From positions 4,340,001 to 4,404,000 of the forward strand of contig NZ_CP040128.1 in NCBI RefSeq assembly GCF_007874125.1: a stretch of DNA of 64,000 nt, given 5' to 3'. How positions within the stretch are numbered: position 1 is the first letter of the stretch; each line of letters begins with the position of its first letter. Under the pieces are notes generated by a model that did no database searches, was not told the DNA's origin, and saw nothing but the letters and a program-made list of their open reading frames with translations. Of the stretch, positions 24,687 to 35,001 are shown in pieces. The position numbers were made by a program, and so were the translations under genes. This stretch comes from Noviherbaspirillum sp. UKPF54. Its GTDB lineage: Bacteria; Pseudomonadota; Gammaproteobacteria; Burkholderiales; Burkholderiaceae_D.

Positions 24687-25229
24687 ATGGCCGAGTTGAT
24701 TCAGACTGGCAGCAGGCAGGCGGGCGTGGCGAGCGCGGCGGCGGACGACCACGCGCAATACCTGACCTTCATGCTGGGCGGGGAAGTGTTCGCGATCGGC
24801 ATCCTGGCGGTGAAGGAAATCATCGAGTACGGCGGCGTGACGGCGGTGCCGATGATGCCTGACTGTATACGCGGGGTGATCAACCTGCGCGGCGCGGTGG
24901 TGCCGGTGATGGACTTGTCGTCGCGCTTCGGGCGGCGGGCCACGGAAGTCGGCAAGCGCACCTGCATCGTGATCGTGGAGATCGAGGCGGGCGGCGAGCA
25001 GCAGGTGGTGGGGGTGATGGTCGATGCGGTCAACGCGGTGCTGGAGATTCCGGCGTCGCAGATCGAACCGGCGCCGAGCTTTGGCGCGAAGATCCGCACT
25101 GACTTCATCGCCGGCATGGGCAAGGTGGGCGGCAAGTTCGTCATCCTGCTCAACGTCGACAACGTGCTGTCGGCGGAGGAGGTAGGTGCGCTGGTTGAGC
25201 TTGCCGCGGACGCGCCAAGCGTCGCATAA
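24687..25229 (+). CDS. cheW: CheW coupling protein, copy 2
   Basis: 180 residues. Protein differences from copy 1 are G2A, a Thr-to-Ala change in GGVTAVP, a Gln-to-Lys change in SFGAKIRTD, and a new C-terminal tail (AEEVGALVELAADAPSVA). All core CheW motifs are the same. It sits 11 nt behind receptor 3, so each of receptors 2 and 3 is followed by its own cheW, as if the receptor-cheW unit had been copied. The near-identity suggests a recent duplication or gene conversion. Confidence 0.95.
   Translation: MAELIQTGSRQAGVASAAADDHAQYLTFMLGGEVFAIGILAVKEIIEYGGVTAVPMMPDCIRGVINLRGAVVPVMDLSSRFGRRATEVGKRTCIVIVEIEAGGEQQVVGVMVDAVNAVLEIPASQIEPAPSFGAKIRTDFIAGMGKVGGKFVILLNVDNVLSAEEVGALVELAADAPSVA
24693..25175 (+). 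repeat. cheW duplication, copy 2
   Basis: 483-nt direct repeat of 22099-22581; five differences, of which two change the protein. Confidence 0.9.
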
Positions 25230-25280
25230 GGAAGGCCCCGCTCCCGCAGACGGGAGCAGGGCGAAGAAACAGAGGTAGCA

Positions 25281-26090
25281 GTGTCAAACATCGTCGCAAT
25301 CACCGATCAGGAATTCACCCAGTTCCAGCGTTTCATCTACGATGCAGCCGGCATCAGCCTGTCGCCGGCCAAGAAGGCGCTGGTCAGCGGAAGGCTGGCC
25401 AAGCGCGTGCAGCACTGTCATCTGAACAGTTACGGCGATTACTTCCGCCTGCTCGCGAGTGGCAAGGCCGATGCCGAGGTGCAGATGGCAGTCGACCTGC
25501 TGACCACCAACGAGACTTATTTTTTCCGCGAGCCGAAGCATTTCGACCTGCTGCGCGAGCAGGCGCGTGCCATGCGCATGCGCGGCCAGCCGCTGCGCGT
25601 GTGGAGCGCGGCCTGCTCCAGCGGCGAGGAGGTGTACAGCATCGCGATGGTGCTGGCGGATGTGATGGAAGAAGGGCAGTGGGACGTGATCGGCTCGGAC
25701 ATCAGCACGCGCGTGCTGACACGGGCGCGTACCGGCCACTATCCATTGGAGCGCACCACGCATGTCCCGATGAGCTACCTGCGGCGCTTCTGCCTGAAGG
25801 GAACCGGCAGCGAGCAGGGAACGCTGCTGGTCGAGCGTGGCCTGCGCAGCCGCGTGCAGTTCCTGCAGGTGAACCTGAACGCGCCGCTGCCGCAGCTCGG
25901 CACCTTCGACGTGATCTTCCTGCGTAATGTGATGATCTACTTTAACGGCGCCACGAAACAGCAGGTCGTGGCGCGCGTGCTGTCGCTGCTCAGGCCGGGC
26001 GGGCTCTTCTTCATCGGCCATTCGGAAAGCCTGCATGGCGTCACCGACCTGGTGCAGCCGGTGATGCCGTCCGTCTACCGCAAGTCCTGA
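25281..26090 (+). CDS. cheR: Chemotaxis protein methyltransferase CheR
   Basis: 269 residues from a GTG at 25281 (AGAGGTAGCA upstream). The helical N-domain (QEFTQFQRFIYDAAGISLSP) is followed by the S-adenosylmethionine domain: LLTTNETYFFREPKHFDLL, VWSAACSSGEEVYSIAM (the AdoMet loop), DISTRVLTRARTGHY, and FDVIFLRNVMIYF. It methylates receptor glutamates for adaptation. Adjacent cheD and cheB complete the adaptation module. How it is recruited is unclear, since no NWETF-type pentapeptide ends the local receptors, but they do share an FxRF tail. Confidence 0.95.
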   Translation: MSNIVAITDQEFTQFQRFIYDAAGISLSPAKKALVSGRLAKRVQHCHLNSYGDYFRLLASGKADAEVQMAVDLLTTNETYFFREPKHFDLLREQARAMRMRGQPLRVWSAACSSGEEVYSIAMVLADVMEEGQWDVIGSDISTRVLTRARTGHYPLERTTHVPMSYLRRFCLKGTGSEQGTLLVERGLRSRVQFLQVNLNAPLPQLGTFDVIFLRNVMIYFNGATKQQVVARVLSLLRPGGLFFIGHSESLHGVTDLVQPVMPSVYRKS

Positions 26091-26094
26091 ACAC

Positions 26095-26577
26095 ATGACG
26101 AAGAAAGCGGTGATCGACGTCTTCCTGCAGCCGGGCGAGTATTTCGTCGGCGATGCCGATTACCGCATCCGCACGCTGCTCGGCTCCTGCGTTTCGATCA
26201 CGCTCTGGCATCCGGTCGCCAAGGTGGGCGCGATGTCCCACTTTTTGCTGGCGCGGCGCCCGGCACGGCCGGCAGTCGAGCTCGACGCGCGTTACGGCGA
26301 GGAAGCGATGTGGTTGATGCTGCGCGAACTGGACCGTGCCGGCGTGGCGCCGTCGGAATGCCAGGGCAAGGTCTTCGGCGGCGGCGACATGTTCCCGGGG
26401 AATATGCGGACCGCCGGGATCAACGTGGGTAAGAAAAACGGCGTAATGGCGCGCGACCTGTTGTATTCGCACGGCATTTCCATCGTGTCCGAAAGCCTGT
26501 TCGGCGTCGGTCACCGCCAAATCATTTTCGATGTAAGCAGCGGCAACGTCTGGTCGCGCCAGATCAAGCCTGCCTGA
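26095..26577 (+). CDS. cheD: Chemoreceptor glutamine deamidase CheD
   Basis: 160 residues. The CheD catalytic pair is present: Cys32 in [13 protein letters not shown] and His49 in GAMSHFLL, 17 residues apart as in the characterised family. The C-terminal GGGDMF motif is also present ([12 protein letters not shown]). CheD deamidates receptor Gln to Glu and in some species also docks to CheC/CheY. No cheC is present here. The start is 4 nt after the cheR stop, suggesting translational coupling. Confidence 0.93.
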
Positions 26578-26603
26578 AGCAACCTGTAGAAGAGATACTG
26601 CGC

Positions 26604-27689
26604 ATGGACAGCATCAAAGTATTGGTCGTGGACGATTCCGCCGTGGTGCGCCAGGTAATGACCGCCTTGCTCGATGCCGCGCCCGGCATCAAGGTTATCC
26701 ACGCGGTGGCCGACCCGCTTTTGGCGATGGAACGCATGAAGATGCAGTGGCCGGACGTGATCGTGCTGGACGTGGAAATGCCGCGCATGGACGGCATCAC
26801 CTTCCTGAAGAAGATCATGAGCGAGCGCCCCACGCCGGTGGTGATCTGCTCGACGCTCACCGAAAAGGGGGCGCAAACGACGATGGAGGCGCTGGCCGCC
26901 GGGGCGGTGGCGATCATCACCAAGCCCAGGCTCGGGCTCAAGCAGTTCCTGAACGACAGCACCGATGAGTTGATCGGCGCCGTGCGCGCCGCCGCCCGCG
27001 CCAATGTGAAACGGTTGGTCTCGCGCCAGCATGCGCCATTGCCGGTGGTGGCCAAGCACAGCGCCGACGTGATCCTGGCGCCCGCCGACGGCAACGCGAT
27101 GACGCAGACCACCGAGCGGGTGGTGGCGATAGGCACTTCCACCGGCGGCACCCAGGCGCTGGAAGAAGTGCTGACTGCGCTGCCGCGCGTGTCGCCGGGG
27201 ATCGTGATCGTGCAGCACATGCCGGAAAAATTCACCGCCGCCTTTGCTGACCGCCTCAACAGCATCTGCCAGATCGAGGTCAGGGAAGCGCAGAACAACG
27301 ACCGAGTGCTGCCGGGCCGCGCGCTGATCGCCCCCGGCGGCAAGCACATGCTGATGCGCCGCAACGGCGCGCAGTACTACGTCGAAGTGGTCGACGGCCC
27401 GCTGGTCAACCGGCACCGGCCCTCGGTCGATGTGCTGTTCCGCTCGGTGGCGAAAGCGGCCGGCGCCAACGCGCTGGGCGTCATCATGACCGGCATGGGC
27501 GACGACGGCGCGGCCGGCCTCCTGGAGATGAAAAAGGCCGGCGCGCGCACCGTGGCGCAGGATGAGCAGAGTTGCGTGGTGTATGGCATGCCGAAGGAAG
27601 CGGTCAAGCGCGGCGCGGTGGAAAAGACCGTGCCCCTGAACGCGATCGACAAGGAAATTCTTCAGCAGCTGGCGAAGTTCGCCGGGTGA
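26604..27689 (+). CDS. cheB: Protein-glutamate methylesterase/glutaminase CheB
   Basis: 361 residues: receiver domain (acidic D10/D11, phospho-acceptor D56 in [13 protein letters not shown], later K in IITKPRLG), a linker of about 45 residues, and the methylesterase domain. The catalytic triad motifs are GTSTGG (Ser), QHMPEKF (His) and TGMGDDGA (Asp). Phosphorylation by CheA activates removal of receptor methyl groups. It is the last gene of the operon; no obvious rho-independent terminator lies in the 29 nt before the convergent hemerythrin gene. Confidence 0.95.
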
Positions 27690-27718: not shown

Positions 27719-28123
27719 TTACGCCGCAGCCTGTTTGAGGGCGGAGGCAAGCAGCTTGTCCGTCTTCATGATGTGGTTGATCAGCCAGTTGCGCAGGAAG
27801 CCGGATACCTGAACGGACAGCATGCCGTTGCCGGCATTGAATTTCGCCTGTAAATCGACCACCTCCTTGATCAGCTTGTCGTGTTCCTGCTTGTGCGCGG
27901 CGAAGTCGGCATAGCGGATTTTTTGCATGTGGTCTTCTTCACGCTTGAAGTGTTCGCGCGTATAGCGGATCAGTTCGTCGAGGATTTTTCCCAGGATATT
28001 CTTGCCCTGGCCTTGCGCCATGGCTTCGTGAAGCTGATTTAACAGGCTGATGAGCTTTTGATGGTCGCTATCGATAAATGAATTTCCGACCTGTAATTCA
28101 TCAGTCCATGCAAAGTACGCCAT
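27719..28123 (-). CDS. Bacteriohemerythrin (O2-binding, non-heme diiron)
   Basis: 134 residues from ATG 28123 (MAYFAWTDELQVGNSFIDSD, GGAG 6-7 nt upstream; longer starts at 28135 and 28159 have no better site). All diiron ligand motifs are present: DSDHQKL, HFKREEDHM, HKQEHDKLI and the C-terminal HIMKTD. It is soluble and single-domain, the type used for oxygen storage, delivery or sensing, or for scavenging NO. Its gene is convergent with cheB. Upstream lie two FNR-like palindromes, suggesting control by oxygen or NO. Confidence 0.92.
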   Translation of the reverse strand: MAYFAWTDELQVGNSFIDSDHQKLISLLNQLHEAMAQGQGKNILGKILDELIRYTREHFKREEDHMQKIRYADFAAHKQEHDKLIKEVVDLQAKFNAGNGMLSVQVSGFLRNWLINHIMKTDKLLASALKQAAA

Positions 28124-28182
28124 ATCTTTCTCCATGTTGAGCGATTTCACACCCGGCATCGGATCAAGAATCCGGGCTTTTC

Positions 28183-29815: not shown

Positions 29816-30367
29816 ATGGACAACCTGAACAAGCAAGCCCATCTCTCCGACAAAGACTCCATGAAAGCGCTCATACGCCTGTCTGTGGTCATCTACACCG
29901 TCATCACCGTCTTCTTCGTCGGCGCCGCCCTGGTGCTAATCGTCATCAGCGCCAACACCGGGTGGCATGCCTTGCAGCAGGACGGCCTGAGCCCGCAAGG
30001 CGCGATGGGGGTGATCGAGGCGGTCGGCCTGCTGGCGGTGGCCGTGGTGGCGGTCCAGATCGCGCAGACCATCGGCGAGGAGGAAGTCATCCGCTCCGCG
30101 CACGTCAGCGCGCCGACGCGGGTGCGGCGCTATCTATCGCGCTTCATGGTGGTCATCGTGGTTGCGCTGGCCGTCGAGGGGATGGTGGCGGCTTTCAAGG
30201 CGGTGCATGAAAGCATTGCCTTGCTGCCGCATGCGGCCAGCATCCTGGGCGCGGTCGGCGTGCTTCTGGCTGGCTGGGGCGTATTCGTGCGGCTGAACCG
30301 CTTCGCCGAAGAACTGGAGCCGGAGGCGATGCGGGATGCCAAACAGGAAGACAGCAAGCTGCAGTAG
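29816..30367 (+). CDS. Four-TM inner membrane protein of unknown function
   Basis: 183 residues from ATG 29816; the ribosome-binding site is weak and an ATG at 29861 is an alternative. Four hydrophobic segments lie at about 19-46, 64-84, 106-128 and 140-159, with a charged C-terminal tail (RLNRFAEELEPEAMRDAKQED). No catalytic motif is seen. The loop SAPTRVRRYLSRF precedes the third segment. It is convergent with the heme-type MCP gene at 30385. I do not recognise the family. Confidence 0.65.
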   Translation: MDNLNKQAHLSDKDSMKALIRLSVVIYTVITVFFVGAALVLIVISANTGWHALQQDGLSPQGAMGVIEAVGLLAVAVVAVQIAQTIGEEEVIRSAHVSAPTRVRRYLSRFMVVIVVALAVEGMVAAFKAVHESIALLPHAASILGAVGVLLAGWGVFVRLNRFAEELEPEAMRDAKQEDSKLQ

Positions 30368-30384: not shown

Positions 30385-32010
30385 TCAGGCACGCCTGGTC
30401 GCGACGAGCTTCAGTTCCTGCCGCCGGGCGGGGCCGGACGCCGGCGCGCTTGTTGCGGTGGATGCGGGCGCTGCGGCCAGCTTGAACACGCCGACCAGCC
30501 GCTCCAGCTGCCCTGCCTGGTCCTGCAGCGATTCGGAGGCGGCCGCCGCCTGCTCCACCAGCGCCGCGTTCTGCTGGGTCACGGCGTCCATCTCGATGAG
30601 CGCTTGGTTGACCTGCTCGATGCCGGCGGTCTGCTCGGTGCCGGCTGCGGCGATTTCGCCCATGATGTCGGTCACGTGCTTGATGCTGACGACGACTTCC
30701 TGCATGGTGGCGCCTGCCCGGTGCACCAGTGTGGTGCCATCCCGGACCTGCTCGACCGAGCCGCCGATCAGCGCCTTGATTTCCTTGGCAGCGGCCGCCG
30801 AGCGTTGCGCCAGGTTGCGCACTTCGGACGCCACCACCGCGAAGCCGCGCCCCTGCTCGCCGGCGCGGGCCGCTTCCACCGCCGCGTTCAACGCCAGGAT
30901 ATTGGTCTGGAAGGCGATGCCGTCGATCACGCCGATGATGTCGAAGATCTTGCGCGAGGACTCGCTGATCCGGTCCATGGTTTCCACCACGCGCGCTACC
31001 GCAGCGCCCCCCTTGGCCGCCACTTCCGACGCGGACTCGGCCAGCTGGTTGGCTTGCCGCGCGTGCTCGGCATTTTGCCTGACCGCGCCGGTCAGGCGTT
31101 CCATCGAGGCGGCGGTCTTGTCGAGCGAGCCGGCCTGCAGCTCGGTGCGCGATGCCAAGTCCGCGTTGCCGCTGGCAATGTCGCGCGATGCGCCGTAAAT
31201 CGCGTCGCTGCCTTCGCGTACCTGGCGCACGATGCCCACCAGGCTGTCGTTCATGTCCTTTAGCGCCTGCAGCAGGGTGCCGATTTCATCGTGCGAATCG
31301 ATCGTGATGTCCTGGGTCAGGTCGCCGGTGGCGATGCCGCGCGCCACCTGCACGCCTTTTTCCAGCGGCTTGGTGACGACGCGGTGAATGAAGGGATAGA
31401 TCAGCAGCAGCACCGGAATGCAGGTGATGACGGCGGCCAGGATCGATTTCAGGCGCTGCTGCGCGAGGCCGGCGTTGACGTGGTCGAGCGAGAGCTTCAT
31501 GCTGACCGCGCCCAATACCGTGTTTTCCGGCACCTGGTGGCAGGCGGTGCAGTCCTTGCCGAGCGAGTTCTTCTTCGCCAGCGCGGGGCGCACCGCGCGC
31601 AGGTATTCGCCGCGGCTGTCGGACTCGATTTGCACGACTTCCCTGCCGCTTTGCAATACCTTGAGTTCGGCCTCGTCCGGTGTGAACTGATCCTTGGCAT
31701 TGCCCGCGCCAAACACCTTGCTGACCGCGTCGCCGCGGATCACGCGCAGGTCGCGGATGGTGCCCAGCTGCTTGACCTGGTCGAGGAACACGTCGCGCTG
31801 CTGCACGGTGCCGGTCACCATCATGCCGGTCAGCCCGGCCATGGTGGCGTCGTGCATGCTGAGGGAAAAGTCGTTCGCTTGTTCGATCGCGGCCTTGCGA
31901 TAGACATGGTCCTGCCAGACGATCACCCCGGACCAGACCACCAGCAGCGCGACACCGATGGTCAGCAGCAGCTGCACCCAGATATTCCTGTTGGAGATGC
32001 GCGATTTCAT
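30385..32010 (-). CDS. Methyl-accepting chemotaxis protein with periplasmic c-type heme motif
   Basis: 541 residues from ATG 32010. TM1 about 11-32; periplasmic domain 33-186; TM2 about 187-208; HAMP 209-262; then a signalling domain of the other local receptor class (NADLASRTELQAGSLDKTAASM, hairpin FQTNILALNAAVEAARAGEQG). The periplasmic domain contains CTACH (Cys154, Cys157, His158), a covalent heme c attachment motif, followed by VLGAVSMKL before TM2. Receptors with c-type heme sensor domains are known in Geobacter. The likely cue is redox, O2 or NO, but that is inference. It has no FxRF tail. It lies downstream of, and on the same strand as, a heme-type GGDEF-EAL gene. Confidence 0.9.
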   Translation of the reverse strand: MKSRISNRNIWVQLLLTIGVALLVVWSGVIVWQDHVYRKAAIEQANDFSLSMHDATMAGLTGMMVTGTVQQRDVFLDQVKQLGTIRDLRVIRGDAVSKVFGAGNAKDQFTPDEAELKVLQSGREVVQIESDSRGEYLRAVRPALAKKNSLGKDCTACHQVPENTVLGAVSMKLSLDHVNAGLAQQRLKSILAAVITCIPVLLLIYPFIHRVVTKPLEKGVQVARGIATGDLTQDITIDSHDEIGTLLQALKDMNDSLVGIVRQVREGSDAIYGASRDIASGNADLASRTELQAGSLDKTAASMERLTGAVRQNAEHARQANQLAESASEVAAKGGAAVARVVETMDRISESSRKIFDIIGVIDGIAFQTNILALNAAVEAARAGEQGRGFAVVASEVRNLAQRSAAAAKEIKALIGGSVEQVRDGTTLVHRAGATMQEVVVSIKHVTDIMGEIAAAGTEQTAGIEQVNQALIEMDAVTQQNAALVEQAAAASESLQDQAGQLERLVGVFKLAAAPASTATSAPASGPARRQELKLVATRRA

Positions 32011-32178
32011 GGCGCCCCCATGGTTGCGTTAGGTCTTCGCCGGACGCCGCCGGCGCCTCTTGTCTCCGCAACTCATGGAGCCGCCATGCATGCCGCAATG
32101 GGGCGCGCTTATTTTATGTGTATCCAGTCACCGAATCTGGCGGCTGATGAGGCCAGCATAGGCCGTGCTCGCCTTCAA

Positions 32179-32198
32179 TTCCTTGATTCAGGATAATT
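32179..32198 (-). promoter_or_regulatory. Shared upstream element of the two heme-sensor genes, copy A
   Basis: Plus-strand reading TTCCTTGATTCAGGATAATT. It matches the site at 34982-35001 at 18 of 20 positions. It starts 169 nt upstream of the MCP start codon and overlaps the stop codon of the preceding GGDEF-EAL gene. It includes TTGATTCAGGATAA, which resembles an FNR-family site with a weak right half. Confidence 0.5.
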
Positions 32199-34815
32199 TA
32201 TTTCCGACTTGCAATATCGGTTGGGCGCTGCCTGGCGTGCCGCGAACGTGCATCTGCGGCGAGGGCCGGCTGATATGGTAGCCCTGGGCATAATCGATTC
32301 CCAGGCGGCCGACCGCGGCCAGCACGTCGGCATCTTCCACGAATTCGGCGACGGTCTTGATCTTCAGTTCCTTGGCCAGGGTCACGATACTCTTGATGAA
32401 GGCGAGGTAGACCTCGTCATGCAGCATGTTGCGGATGAACTCGCCCTCGATCTTGATGTAGTCGACCGGGAAGCGCTTGATGTACTGGAACGAGGAGAAG
32501 CCGGAACCGAAGTCGTCGATCGCGAAGGAAAAGCCCTGCATCTTCACGTCGAGCACGAACTTTTCGAGCAGGGTCAGGTTGCGCACCGTTTCCCGCTCGG
32601 TGATCTCGAACACGATGCGGCTCGGTTCGATCTCGAACTGCTCGGCCAGCCGGCTTACGCGCGCGGCGAATTCGCCGACGATCAAGGCCTTGGGCGACAG
32701 GTTCACGAACAGCATGCCCTGGTAGCCCTGCTCCTTGACCTGGGTGAACGCCTTTTCGATCAGCTGGTAATCCATCTTGTGGGCGATGCCCATGCTCTCG
32801 GCCTGTTCGATGAAATCGTTGGCGGTCACGATCTCGTCGTCGAGCTGGATGCGCATGAGCAGCTCGTGGATCACGATCTCGCCGGTCGCGGTGTCGCAGA
32901 TCGGCTGGAAGAACGGCACGATGCGGTGTTCGTCGAGCGCGTTCTGGATCATCAGCGACTTTTCGCCGGCTTTCCGGAACACTTCGGCCATCTCGTCCTC
33001 GTTCGGGATGGCGATGGCGTTCTTGCCGGCGCTCTTCGCCTTGTACATCATGTTGTCCGCGACCAGGAACAAGTCCTTGGGATTCTCGCCGTGGTCGGGG
33101 CTGATGGCGATGCCGATCGAGGTGGTGGCCTTGAGCTTGATGCCGTCGGGCGTGTCCATCGAAAATTCCTCGAGCATCTCGCCGATGCGCTGCGCCACCA
33201 CGTACGCCTGGGTCTCGGACGCTTCCGGCAGGATGATGCAGAATTCGTCGCCGCCGTAGCGCGCCAGCAGGTCGCCGTTGCGTACTGCCTTTTGCAGCAG
33301 CTTGGCGAAGGATTGCAGGAAGGCGTCGCCGAAATGATGGCCGAAGCGGTCGTTGATGGTCTTGAAGTTGTCCATGTCGAGCATCATCACGGCGAACTTC
33401 TGCTCGTGTCGCCGGGCGCGCCCGACCTCGTAGCCCAGCAGTTCCCAGAACATGCGCTGGTTGTACAGGTCGGTGAGCGGGTCGCGCGTGGCGTAATGCT
33501 CCAGGTCCTTGGTGTACTTGTAGATCGCCTTGACCGAGCCGACCAGGTTCAGGAGCGTGGTCAGGATGCTGCCGATGACCATGTGCCGCACGTTGTCCTG
33601 CGCCATGGTCGACTGCACGCCGATGCCGACGATGCCGCCGATCTTGGGCGTGTCCAGCAGCAGCGTCTTGGTCTGCAGCTCGATGTCGCGCAGGCTCAGT
33701 TCGGGCAGGGTGTGCTTGTCGTCGGCGATGTTGTGCACGATGTTGAGCAGGCTGGCGCCGTGCAGCAGCGAGTACTCGCGAATCTGCTGGCGCAGGATGC
33801 GTTCCAGCAGCCGCACCGTGTTGTCGCTGGGCCGGTTGCGCCAGAACACTTCGCATTCGTAGGCTTCTTCCTCCACCCGGAAAATCGTCACCAGCGCGTA
33901 GGCCTCGATGATCGGATTGATTTCCAGTAGCAGGTTCTGGATGAATTCGCGCCAGTCGCGTACCACGTTGGAGGTGATGATGAATTTTTCCAGCAGCCGG
34001 ATCTCGAATTCGAGCACGCCCTTGTCGACCGCGACGCTCTTGATCTTGTCCACCAGTAGCGCCACGTGCTCGAAGGCCTGGTTGAATTCGCTGAAGCCGA
34101 ACTCGACCTTGCCGATATCGAAGTGCTCGAAATCCTTGATCGTGTTGAACGACTCGACCTCGCGCTTGAACAGGTAGGCCGAGCGCTCCAGCCGGTGCGC
34201 GACCCACGAGGTCAAGGCGCCGGCCGCCACCAGCACCAGCGTGCCCAGGGCCAGAAACAGCGCGACGTAATAGCCGCGCACGGTGCCCGCCACCGGCTCG
34301 AGCTTGTGGCGGATATCGATCACGCCGAGCACGTCTTCGGCCTTGGCATTGGCGTGGCAACCCAGGCACTCGCCCTCGGCACGCACCGGATACAGGTAGC
34401 GGATCTGGTCGCCGGTCGTCGCGACGGCGTTCCTGCCGTCGTGCAGCACCTGCTGCGCCAGGTCCGGCGGCAGCGGCGTGCCGGCTCGGCCGTAGAGGGC
34501 GGCCACGTCATCGCTGCGGTAGACGTCGATGCGTTCGACGAAGCTGGGAAAGGCGTAACGGCTGGCCGCGGCTGCTTCGTCGATCTGGCTGCGCAGGCCG
34601 CCGCTGCGCAGCACCTGGTAGATCGCGTTGCGGTTTTGCGCCGCGACTTCTTCCGAGGTGGCGCGCGAGCGTTCCTCCAGCAGCTTTTCGTAAAGAATCG
34701 ACGACGCGAAGGTCGCGCCCAGGAATACCAGCAGCGCGACGCTGACGGTGGACAGGAACACAAATCCCCGCAGGCTGCCGAGCACCCTGGAAATCGTTTT
34801 ATATATACCTCGCAT
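32188..34815 (-). CDS. GGDEF-EAL protein with periplasmic c-type heme motif and GAF-like domain
   Basis: 875 residues. TM1 about 17-42; periplasmic domain with CLGCH (Cys150, Cys153, His154), a heme c motif, followed by VLGVIDIRHKL; TM2 about 182-205. A cytoplasmic GAF-like region follows (about 260-420). The cyclase domain has intact GGDEF (RYGGDEF) and an I-site RNGD five residues before it. The EAL domain reads ELLMR for the EAL motif and keeps NLSPKAL, ITER, DDFGSG, KIE and Q in DYAQGY. EGVE reads EFVE. Both activities look possible. It probably turns a periplasmic redox or gas signal into c-di-GMP changes. It is adjacent to the heme-type MCP. Confidence 0.9.
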   Translation of the reverse strand: MRGIYKTISRVLGSLRGFVFLSTVSVALLVFLGATFASSILYEKLLEERSRATSEEVAAQNRNAIYQVLRSGGLRSQIDEAAAASRYAFPSFVERIDVYRSDDVAALYGRAGTPLPPDLAQQVLHDGRNAVATTGDQIRYLYPVRAEGECLGCHANAKAEDVLGVIDIRHKLEPVAGTVRGYYVALFLALGTLVLVAAGALTSWVAHRLERSAYLFKREVESFNTIKDFEHFDIGKVEFGFSEFNQAFEHVALLVDKIKSVAVDKGVLEFEIRLLEKFIITSNVVRDWREFIQNLLLEINPIIEAYALVTIFRVEEEAYECEVFWRNRPSDNTVRLLERILRQQIREYSLLHGASLLNIVHNIADDKHTLPELSLRDIELQTKTLLLDTPKIGGIVGIGVQSTMAQDNVRHMVIGSILTTLLNLVGSVKAIYKYTKDLEHYATRDPLTDLYNQRMFWELLGYEVGRARRHEQKFAVMMLDMDNFKTINDRFGHHFGDAFLQSFAKLLQKAVRNGDLLARYGGDEFCIILPEASETQAYVVAQRIGEMLEEFSMDTPDGIKLKATTSIGIAISPDHGENPKDLFLVADNMMYKAKSAGKNAIAIPNEDEMAEVFRKAGEKSLMIQNALDEHRIVPFFQPICDTATGEIVIHELLMRIQLDDEIVTANDFIEQAESMGIAHKMDYQLIEKAFTQVKEQGYQGMLFVNLSPKALIVGEFAARVSRLAEQFEIEPSRIVFEITERETVRNLTLLEKFVLDVKMQGFSFAIDDFGSGFSSFQYIKRFPVDYIKIEGEFIRNMLHDEVYLAFIKSIVTLAKELKIKTVAEFVEDADVLAAVGRLGIDYAQGYHISRPSPQMHVRGTPGSAQPILQVGNKLS

Positions 34816-34981: not shown

Positions 34982-35001
34982 TTCCTTGATCCAGGACAAT
35001 T
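34982..35001 (-). promoter_or_regulatory. Shared upstream element of the two heme-sensor genes, copy B
   Basis: Plus-strand reading TTCCTTGATCCAGGACAATT. It starts 167 nt upstream of the GGDEF-EAL start codon, almost the same distance as copy A from the MCP start. It contains the near-palindrome TCCTTGATCCAGGA and the FNR-family-like TTGATCCAGGACAA. Fully intergenic. Confidence 0.55.

Follow-up and report, generated by a model that had tools for sequence, protein, structure and literature searches.

Neighboring genes for a chemoreceptor and a GGDEF-EAL protein with divergent, putatively heme-c-binding single-Cache sensors in Noviherbaspirillum sp. UKPF54

In the genome of Noviherbaspirillum sp. 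UKPF54, the genes of a chemoreceptor and of a GGDEF-EAL protein stand side by side, and both products carry a c-type heme motif between two membrane helices. The locus raises the question of whether chemotaxis and c-di-GMP turnover are coupled here to one and the same heme-borne signal, as a sequence-only reading of the DNA had suggested. The window (the whole stretch analyzed, 64,000 nucleotides) is a portion of a single-contig 4.72-Mb genome; when GGDEF-EAL proteins are compared, Noviherbaspirillum autotrophicum is the closest named relative (94%). Both ORFs are intact and lie on the minus strand, with 177 nt between 32188-34815 (875 aa) and 30385-32010 (541 aa). They encode the following features:

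30385..32010, minus strand: chemoreceptor of 541 aa, built as TM1, heme-type single Cache, TM2, HAMP and MCP signaling domain
31465..31905, minus strand: periplasmic Cache-type sensor of the chemoreceptor, about residues 36-182
31537..31551, minus strand: CTACH of the chemoreceptor, residues 154-158, in the model on a short helix between strands 3 and 4
31243..31392, minus strand: HAMP domain of the chemoreceptor, residues 207-256 (Pfam)
30577..31047, minus strand: MCPsignal domain of the chemoreceptor, residues 322-478 (Pfam, E 2.9e-53)
32188..34815, minus strand: GGDEF-EAL protein of 875 aa, built as TM1, heme-type single Cache, TM2, GAF-like region, GGDEF and EAL
34282..34692, minus strand: periplasmic Cache-type sensor of the GGDEF-EAL protein, about residues 42-178
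34354..34368, minus strand: CLGCH of the GGDEF-EAL protein, residues 150-154
33499..34023, minus strand: cytoplasmic GAF-like region of the GGDEF-EAL protein, about residues 265-439, assigned with low to moderate confidence
33019..33492, minus strand: GGDEF domain with the GGDEF motif and RxxD (RNGD) present (Pfam and residue check)
32263..32952, minus strand: EAL domain with all nine checked catalytic positions present (Pfam and residue check)

The proposed placement of both motifs between two membrane helices was confirmed. CTACH and CLGCH are the only CxxCH motifs in their proteins (chance expectations 0.0003 and 0.0007, from each protein's own composition) and are bracketed by hydrophobic 19-residue windows, which start at residues 7-18 and 185-195 in the chemoreceptor and at residues 11-28 and 178-189 in the GGDEF-EAL protein. 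VLG does precede TM2 (VLGAV in the chemoreceptor, VLGVI in the GGDEF-EAL protein), but not after the 8-residue gap described earlier, as six (159-164) and seven residues (155-161), respectively, separate it from the His. The two outputs, chemotaxis and c-di-GMP, were assigned correctly: HAMP and MCPsignal characterize the first protein as a methyl-accepting chemotaxis protein, and the GGDEF motif and EAL catalytic residues characterize the second as a GGDEF-EAL c-di-GMP enzyme. GGDEF residues serve the synthesis of c-di-GMP and EAL residues its breakdown, and RxxD is the usual inhibitory site. Judged by its RxxD, both activities may be live in the GGDEF-EAL protein. Among orthologues, the GGDEF residues are present in 83/83 and the nine EAL positions each in at least 82/83. 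The closest solved GGDEF-EAL structure by sequence is 5XGB (E 2.1e-65), which we take to be RbdA (PA0861), in a comparison that covers the catalytic tandem alone. The GAF-like region was assigned from an unseparated model of 427 residues with a pTM of 0.47.

Profile comparison, predicted models and fold search point to a single-Cache domain in each periplasmic part, related to the heme-c sensors GSU0582/GSU0935 and Tll0287. The corresponding family was named sCache_heme in a 2026 preprint, which describes an NO sensor, places CxxCH on a short helical insertion that separates strands 3 and 4, and reports a broad family whose outputs are of MCP, kinase and c-di-GMP type (PMC12889525). That such sensors are known for some receptors (Geobacter) is therefore an understatement, and the pair is ordinary in kind, as published heme-c Cache sensors already cover both outputs. 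In both proteins the CxxCH lies in an extracytoplasmic domain, and in both models it sits on a short helix in the interval between the third and fourth strands, which agrees with the sCache_heme description. The two sensor profiles are homologous (hhalign 99.2%, E 2.3e-19), and in the fold search the AF2 models of both sensors match GSU0935 (3B42) and GSU0582 (3B47) from Geobacter sulfurreducens; the suggested check for a shared fold thus turned out positive. By sequence profile, however, the sensors of the chemoreceptor and the enzyme are homologous but far-apart subfamilies, and the chemoreceptor-sensor profile misses E 1e-4 on the window's enzyme while reaching it on some enzyme orthologues. 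A recent duplication of one sensor into both proteins was rejected, as the profiles are homologous yet far apart.

Both proteins stay under the Pfam cut-offs. PF11845 (Tll0287-like) scores 17.6 and 13.1 bits against a cut-off of 24.1, and PF21563 (Mcp40H-20_sensor) scores 18.3 bits against a cut-off of 27 on chemoreceptor residues 60-176, with no match listed for the GGDEF-EAL protein. A PF11845 search over the whole genome at E 1 returned nothing. The sensors are therefore called divergent relatives and not PF11845 members, which sets them apart from sCache_heme as defined by DUF3365/Tll0287 (PF11845; Tll0287 = 5B82). The enzyme-sensor profile also matches solved heme-c sensors; the chemoreceptor-sensor profile gives only a chance match against solved structures. 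The link of the chemoreceptor to GSU0935 is suggested by its predicted fold and, via hhalign, by the profile of the enzyme. The match to 3b42 in Foldseek has an rmsd of 13.3 over 137 columns, and the 3b42 crystal is a swapped dimer according to excerpts of PMC8396549. In VIA-align, heme-less WalK matches both models equally well or better, so the fold alone cannot single out a heme domain; many Cache domains are tied in the lists for both models.

The heme motif itself is widely kept. Poor conservation of CxxCH in close homologues had been named as grounds for abandoning the heme idea, but 81/84 GGDEF-EAL proteins carry the motif, a set that counts the window's own and spans Nitrospirota, beta- and gammaproteobacteria and a contig with the label Epsilonproteobacteria, and so do 120/120 chemoreceptor-family homologues listed, of 901 matches. 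The measure of conservation is 81/84 and not the 60/60 of alignment A1, which holds 60 of the 84 proteins after 24 rows (near-duplicates, fragments and the three without CxxCH) were dropped by choice. These three are Billgrantia orthologues (L066, L067 and L073) with CLACE, CLACQ and no aligned motif, respectively, and probably represent natural versions without heme.

The most important difference between the two sensors lies at the distal heme ligand position. According to excerpts of PMC8396549, one heme of the GSU0935 dimer has Met60 as its distal ligand, and water takes this place at the other heme and at the hemes of GSU0582. The excerpts also report NO and CO binding and the proposal of a redox-linked ligand switch (Met60 switch) for GSU0582/GSU0935 (PMC8396549). 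The Met60 register was obtained by counting back from His144 in the profile alignment and lies three residues ahead of a conserved Gly. The equivalent positions in the window are:

31819..31821, minus strand: Met64 of the chemoreceptor, aligned to the GSU0935 distal ligand Met60 (Met in 33/33 rows)
34609..34611, minus strand: Leu69 of the GGDEF-EAL protein, at the GSU0935 Met60 position (alignment)

The chemoreceptor thus shares with GSU0935 and GSU0582 the periplasmic PAS/Cache-type fold, the CxxCH and the MCP output, and with GSU0935 the aligned Met, at about 20% identity only; the window's enzyme differs from them by its GGDEF-EAL output and its Leu. Residue 69 of the GGDEF-EAL family is Met in 45/60 rows and Leu in 15/60, and the Leu rows form a single clade with 100/100 support in a tree that includes the Met/Leu column. 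Where records go beyond Pseudomonadota/Proteobacteria, this clade consists of betaproteobacteria, other betaproteobacteria being found in the Met group. It has also lost Met65, Trp73 and Phe81, each present in 45/45 rows of the Met group, and carries His170 in 13/15 rows vs 5/45. The sensor part of the window's enzyme contains no Met at all. Both types of GGDEF-EAL heme protein, Leu and Met, occur on one Sulfuricella contig (L036 and L082), about 35 kb apart.

Judged from the alignments, a Met kept in the chemoreceptor and a Leu in the window's enzyme and one betaproteobacterial clade appear to be new, and the two neighbors probably share neither the same heme ligation nor the same response to ligand or redox. 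With Met in the distal helix of the chemoreceptor and Leu in the enzyme, it is doubtful that the sensors read the same signal in a strict sense, and their placement in far-apart subfamilies weakens this claim as well. What seems new is the variant: a tandem that has both outputs, scores under the Pfam thresholds and carries a change at the distal ligand site that is specific to one clade. The main text of PMC12889525 contains none of the whole words operon, methionine and Met, so operon pairing and the Met position are seemingly not treated there.

Homologues standing next to each other in other genomes, a further point raised by the sequence-only reading, are rare, but their co-occurrence within genomes is strong. 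A heme-type MCP directly follows the enzyme on the same strand in 3/80 enzyme loci in addition to the window, namely L060 (N. autotrophicum), L083 (a MAG of Chromatiales) and L091 (a contig probably of Nitrospirota), which lie on separate tree branches; this count is a lower bound, since the flanks are often short. In L091 the MCP runs off the end of the contig, and the MCPsignal score stays under the cut-off. In L092 a heme-type MCP stands upstream of the enzyme with about 1.8 kb between them, and in L099 a heme-type GGDEF protein lies 4 kb from the enzyme. Some loci apparently represent one genome twice (L060 and L002; L037 and L004), and L001 is the window. Across 399 genomes of the order, at cut-offs chosen for this analysis, the enzyme occurs in 20, the chemoreceptor-type sensor in 65 and both in 15, vs 3.3 expected (Fisher p 2.8e-9, kinship uncorrected). 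Close sensor matches alone are found in 13/20 enzyme genomes, vs 32/399 genomes that have such matches. By coordinates, the window's pair is the only adjacent one among the matches listed in this sample. Side-by-side linkage as a rule was rejected on account of this rarity, and conserved neighbors were rejected as a guide to function, as the genes flanking the enzyme are common only to close kin.

The chemoreceptor search in the order sample used the sensor part alone, so the outputs of the matches vary. Among the best 29 sensor loci outside the window's genome, 25 have an MCP-type C-terminal part and four (L121, L123, L131 and L139) fuse the chemoreceptor-type heme sensor to C-terminal sequence that looks EAL-like by eye. 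These fusions suggest that the chemoreceptor-type subfamily itself swapped between chemotaxis and c-di-GMP outputs.

The genome harbors markers of both heme-c maturation systems (CcmE and ResB), a full-length match to a cd1-type nitrite reductase and a Cu nitrite reductase over the cut-off. In a sample of the genus, 5/15 genomes carry such sensors: the enzyme is found in G000, G006, G013 and G014, and the chemoreceptor-type sensor in G000, G001, G006, G013 and G014 (only distantly in G006). In all five, CcmE is present along with a strong match of NirS or NirK type. CcmE and a NirS-/NirK-type match are also present in G003 and G004, where the sensor is absent, and G007 and G012 have NirK and lack both CcmE and the sensor. 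The five sensor genomes (5/5) thus all fall among the 7/15 with CcmE (Fisher p 0.007, kinship uncorrected). A dependence on Ccm (System I) beyond the genus was rejected, as 7/20 enzyme-carrying genomes of the order have no CcmE match; CcmE is hardly commoner among them (13/20) than overall (241/399). A ResB match is present in 7/7 of those without CcmE, but with CcmE in 241/399 and ResB in 181/399 genomes, the possession of one of the two says little.

The same genome encodes a third sensor of this type:

L141:5292-7154 (genome 1858291-1860153): third heme-type sensor of the genome, with CLQCH, HAMP and GGDEF

It resembles the N-terminal part of the chemoreceptor (28% identity, E 1.4e-17) and has Met at the ligand position, but differs in its HAMP-GGDEF output without EAL and in its nitrate reductase context. 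As L141 is a row of alignment A2, its profile match holds by construction. The gene adjoins that of a MASE8-GGDEF protein, and close by are the genes of the beta and gamma chains of nitrate reductase and of a NarX-like kinase, together with a MoaA-like ORF; the names NarG, NarJ, PpiC and MoaA in this region were assigned by eye.

Upstream of the enzyme, a putative regulatory site was found. The FNR/ANR/DNR consensus is TTGATN4ATCAA, and class II promoters follow a spacing rule between such a box and the -10 hexamer.

34986..34999, minus strand: putative FNR/ANR/DNR-type box TTGTCCTGGATCAA, 8/10 consensus positions, 184 nt before the enzyme start codon
34958-34963, minus strand: -10-like TATGCT at class II spacing from the putative box

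A box with at least 9/10 positions occurs upstream of enzyme orthologues in 19/82 regions, which come from related species and hence are not independent, vs 10/520 regions of other genes from the same loci. Dinucleotide shuffles of the 82 upstreams gave a mean of 0.7 and a maximum of 4 in 200, and nine control patterns were found in 0-2 of 82. The 8/10 level of the window is reached by 12% of shuffled upstreams and by 97/520 control regions; its box recurs at the aligned place in N. autotrophicum, together with a -10-like hexamer. No such box was found upstream of the enzyme in several close relatives, L003, L004 and L031-L034 among them, and no clear one ahead of chemoreceptor homologues (at least 9 positions in 2/35, 8 in 11/35). 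An FNR-type box is thus enriched upstream of enzyme orthologues and weak in the window, and it may serve regulation.

The explanation we favor, and hold to be somewhat probable, is a two-output NO/redox sensor set for denitrifying conditions, in which divergent heme-c single-Cache domains steer taxis and c-di-GMP. The analysis itself establishes the sequence, the homology, the predicted fold, the conservation, the altered pocket throughout the clade and the co-occurrence in genomes, whereas heme attachment, the ligand, the direction of each output and their joint action are the parts that we infer. Each periplasmic domain would bind one heme c covalently, and the Cache domain and TM2 would shift when this heme binds a ligand or changes its redox state, the signal most likely being NO, or the redox state, in denitrifying, low-oxygen conditions. 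In the chemoreceptor, the shift would pass through HAMP to the CheA-controlling tip and alter the swimming direction. In the enzyme, it would pass through the GAF-like region to the GGDEF-EAL tandem and alter c-di-GMP synthesis or breakdown. The chemoreceptor heme would probably be ligated by His158/Met64, as in one GSU0935 heme. The enzyme heme in the betaproteobacterial clade, without the Met and three residues invariant elsewhere in the aligned family, should be five-coordinate or water-ligated and differ in affinity or potential. The two sensors would then be parallel, differently tuned read-outs and not copies of one sensor. A more specific version, tentative and fairly unlikely in its entirety, combines a Met-ligated, redox-gated sensor for chemotaxis with a Met-less, open-pocket one for c-di-GMP; a denitrifier would compare both to swim or settle, and the Met-less pocket would have arisen once, in betaproteobacteria. 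If the two-output set holds, a single heme-c scaffold feeds motility and biofilm decisions within one cell, and the natural difference between the two pockets at the distal ligand position offers a direct test of NO vs redox discrimination. The change from Met to Leu in the clade, with the loss of three other invariant residues, would be a natural experiment for the Geobacter ligand-switch model.

Of the candidate signals redox, O2 and NO, oxygen is the least likely by analogy (PMC12889525), and NO and redox are retained. Sensors of the redox state of the periplasm or of the quinone/cytochrome pool, acting through heme oxidation and Met on/off with NO binding incidental, are an unlikely though respectable alternative: Met64 is conserved in 33/33 aligned chemoreceptor-type sensors, and the switch proposed for GSU0582/GSU0935 in the excerpts of PMC8396549 would provide the mechanism. 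Yet the same Met switch cannot serve both proteins, since the Leu clade enzyme has no Met, and the signaling-type relative that was tested acted as an NO sensor (PMC12889525). That relative binds NO with slow release, autoxidizes fast and forms no stable oxy complex (PMC12889525), which argues against oxygen (aerotaxis) sensing and makes it improbable, even though the FNR-type control suggested for enzyme orthologues fits low-oxygen physiology and excerpts of PMC8396549 describe the heme-c chemoreceptor DcrA as a sensor of redox potential and oxygen.

A different objection concerns the pair itself, whose adjacency may be due to chance or a recent rearrangement, with each protein working alone in its own network. 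We give this a real but minor chance. The order sample contains no other adjacent pair among the matches listed, though 15 genomes have both genes, and G013 of the same genus has them on different contigs; against this stand the identical order and strand on the separate branches of L060, L083 and L091, and the co-occurrence statistic, uncorrected for kinship. Finally, the CxxCH motifs might bind a metal or form a disulfide with no heme attached, as the three natural losses and the match of heme-less WalK-like Cache domains to the models would allow. This is very improbable, since crystal structures that carry heme c on this very motif are matched by fold and by profile, and CxxCH is conserved across phyla.

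Around the pair, a 183-aa ORF without a Pfam family and with hydrophobic segments (by eye) lies at window positions 29816-30367 on the plus strand, convergent with the chemoreceptor gene. A chemotaxis cluster with CheW-, CheR-, CheD- and CheB-like ORFs (names by eye) spans 24687-27689, and a bacteriohemerythrin (PF01814) is encoded at its end, at 27719-28159 on the minus strand, near the heme chemoreceptor.
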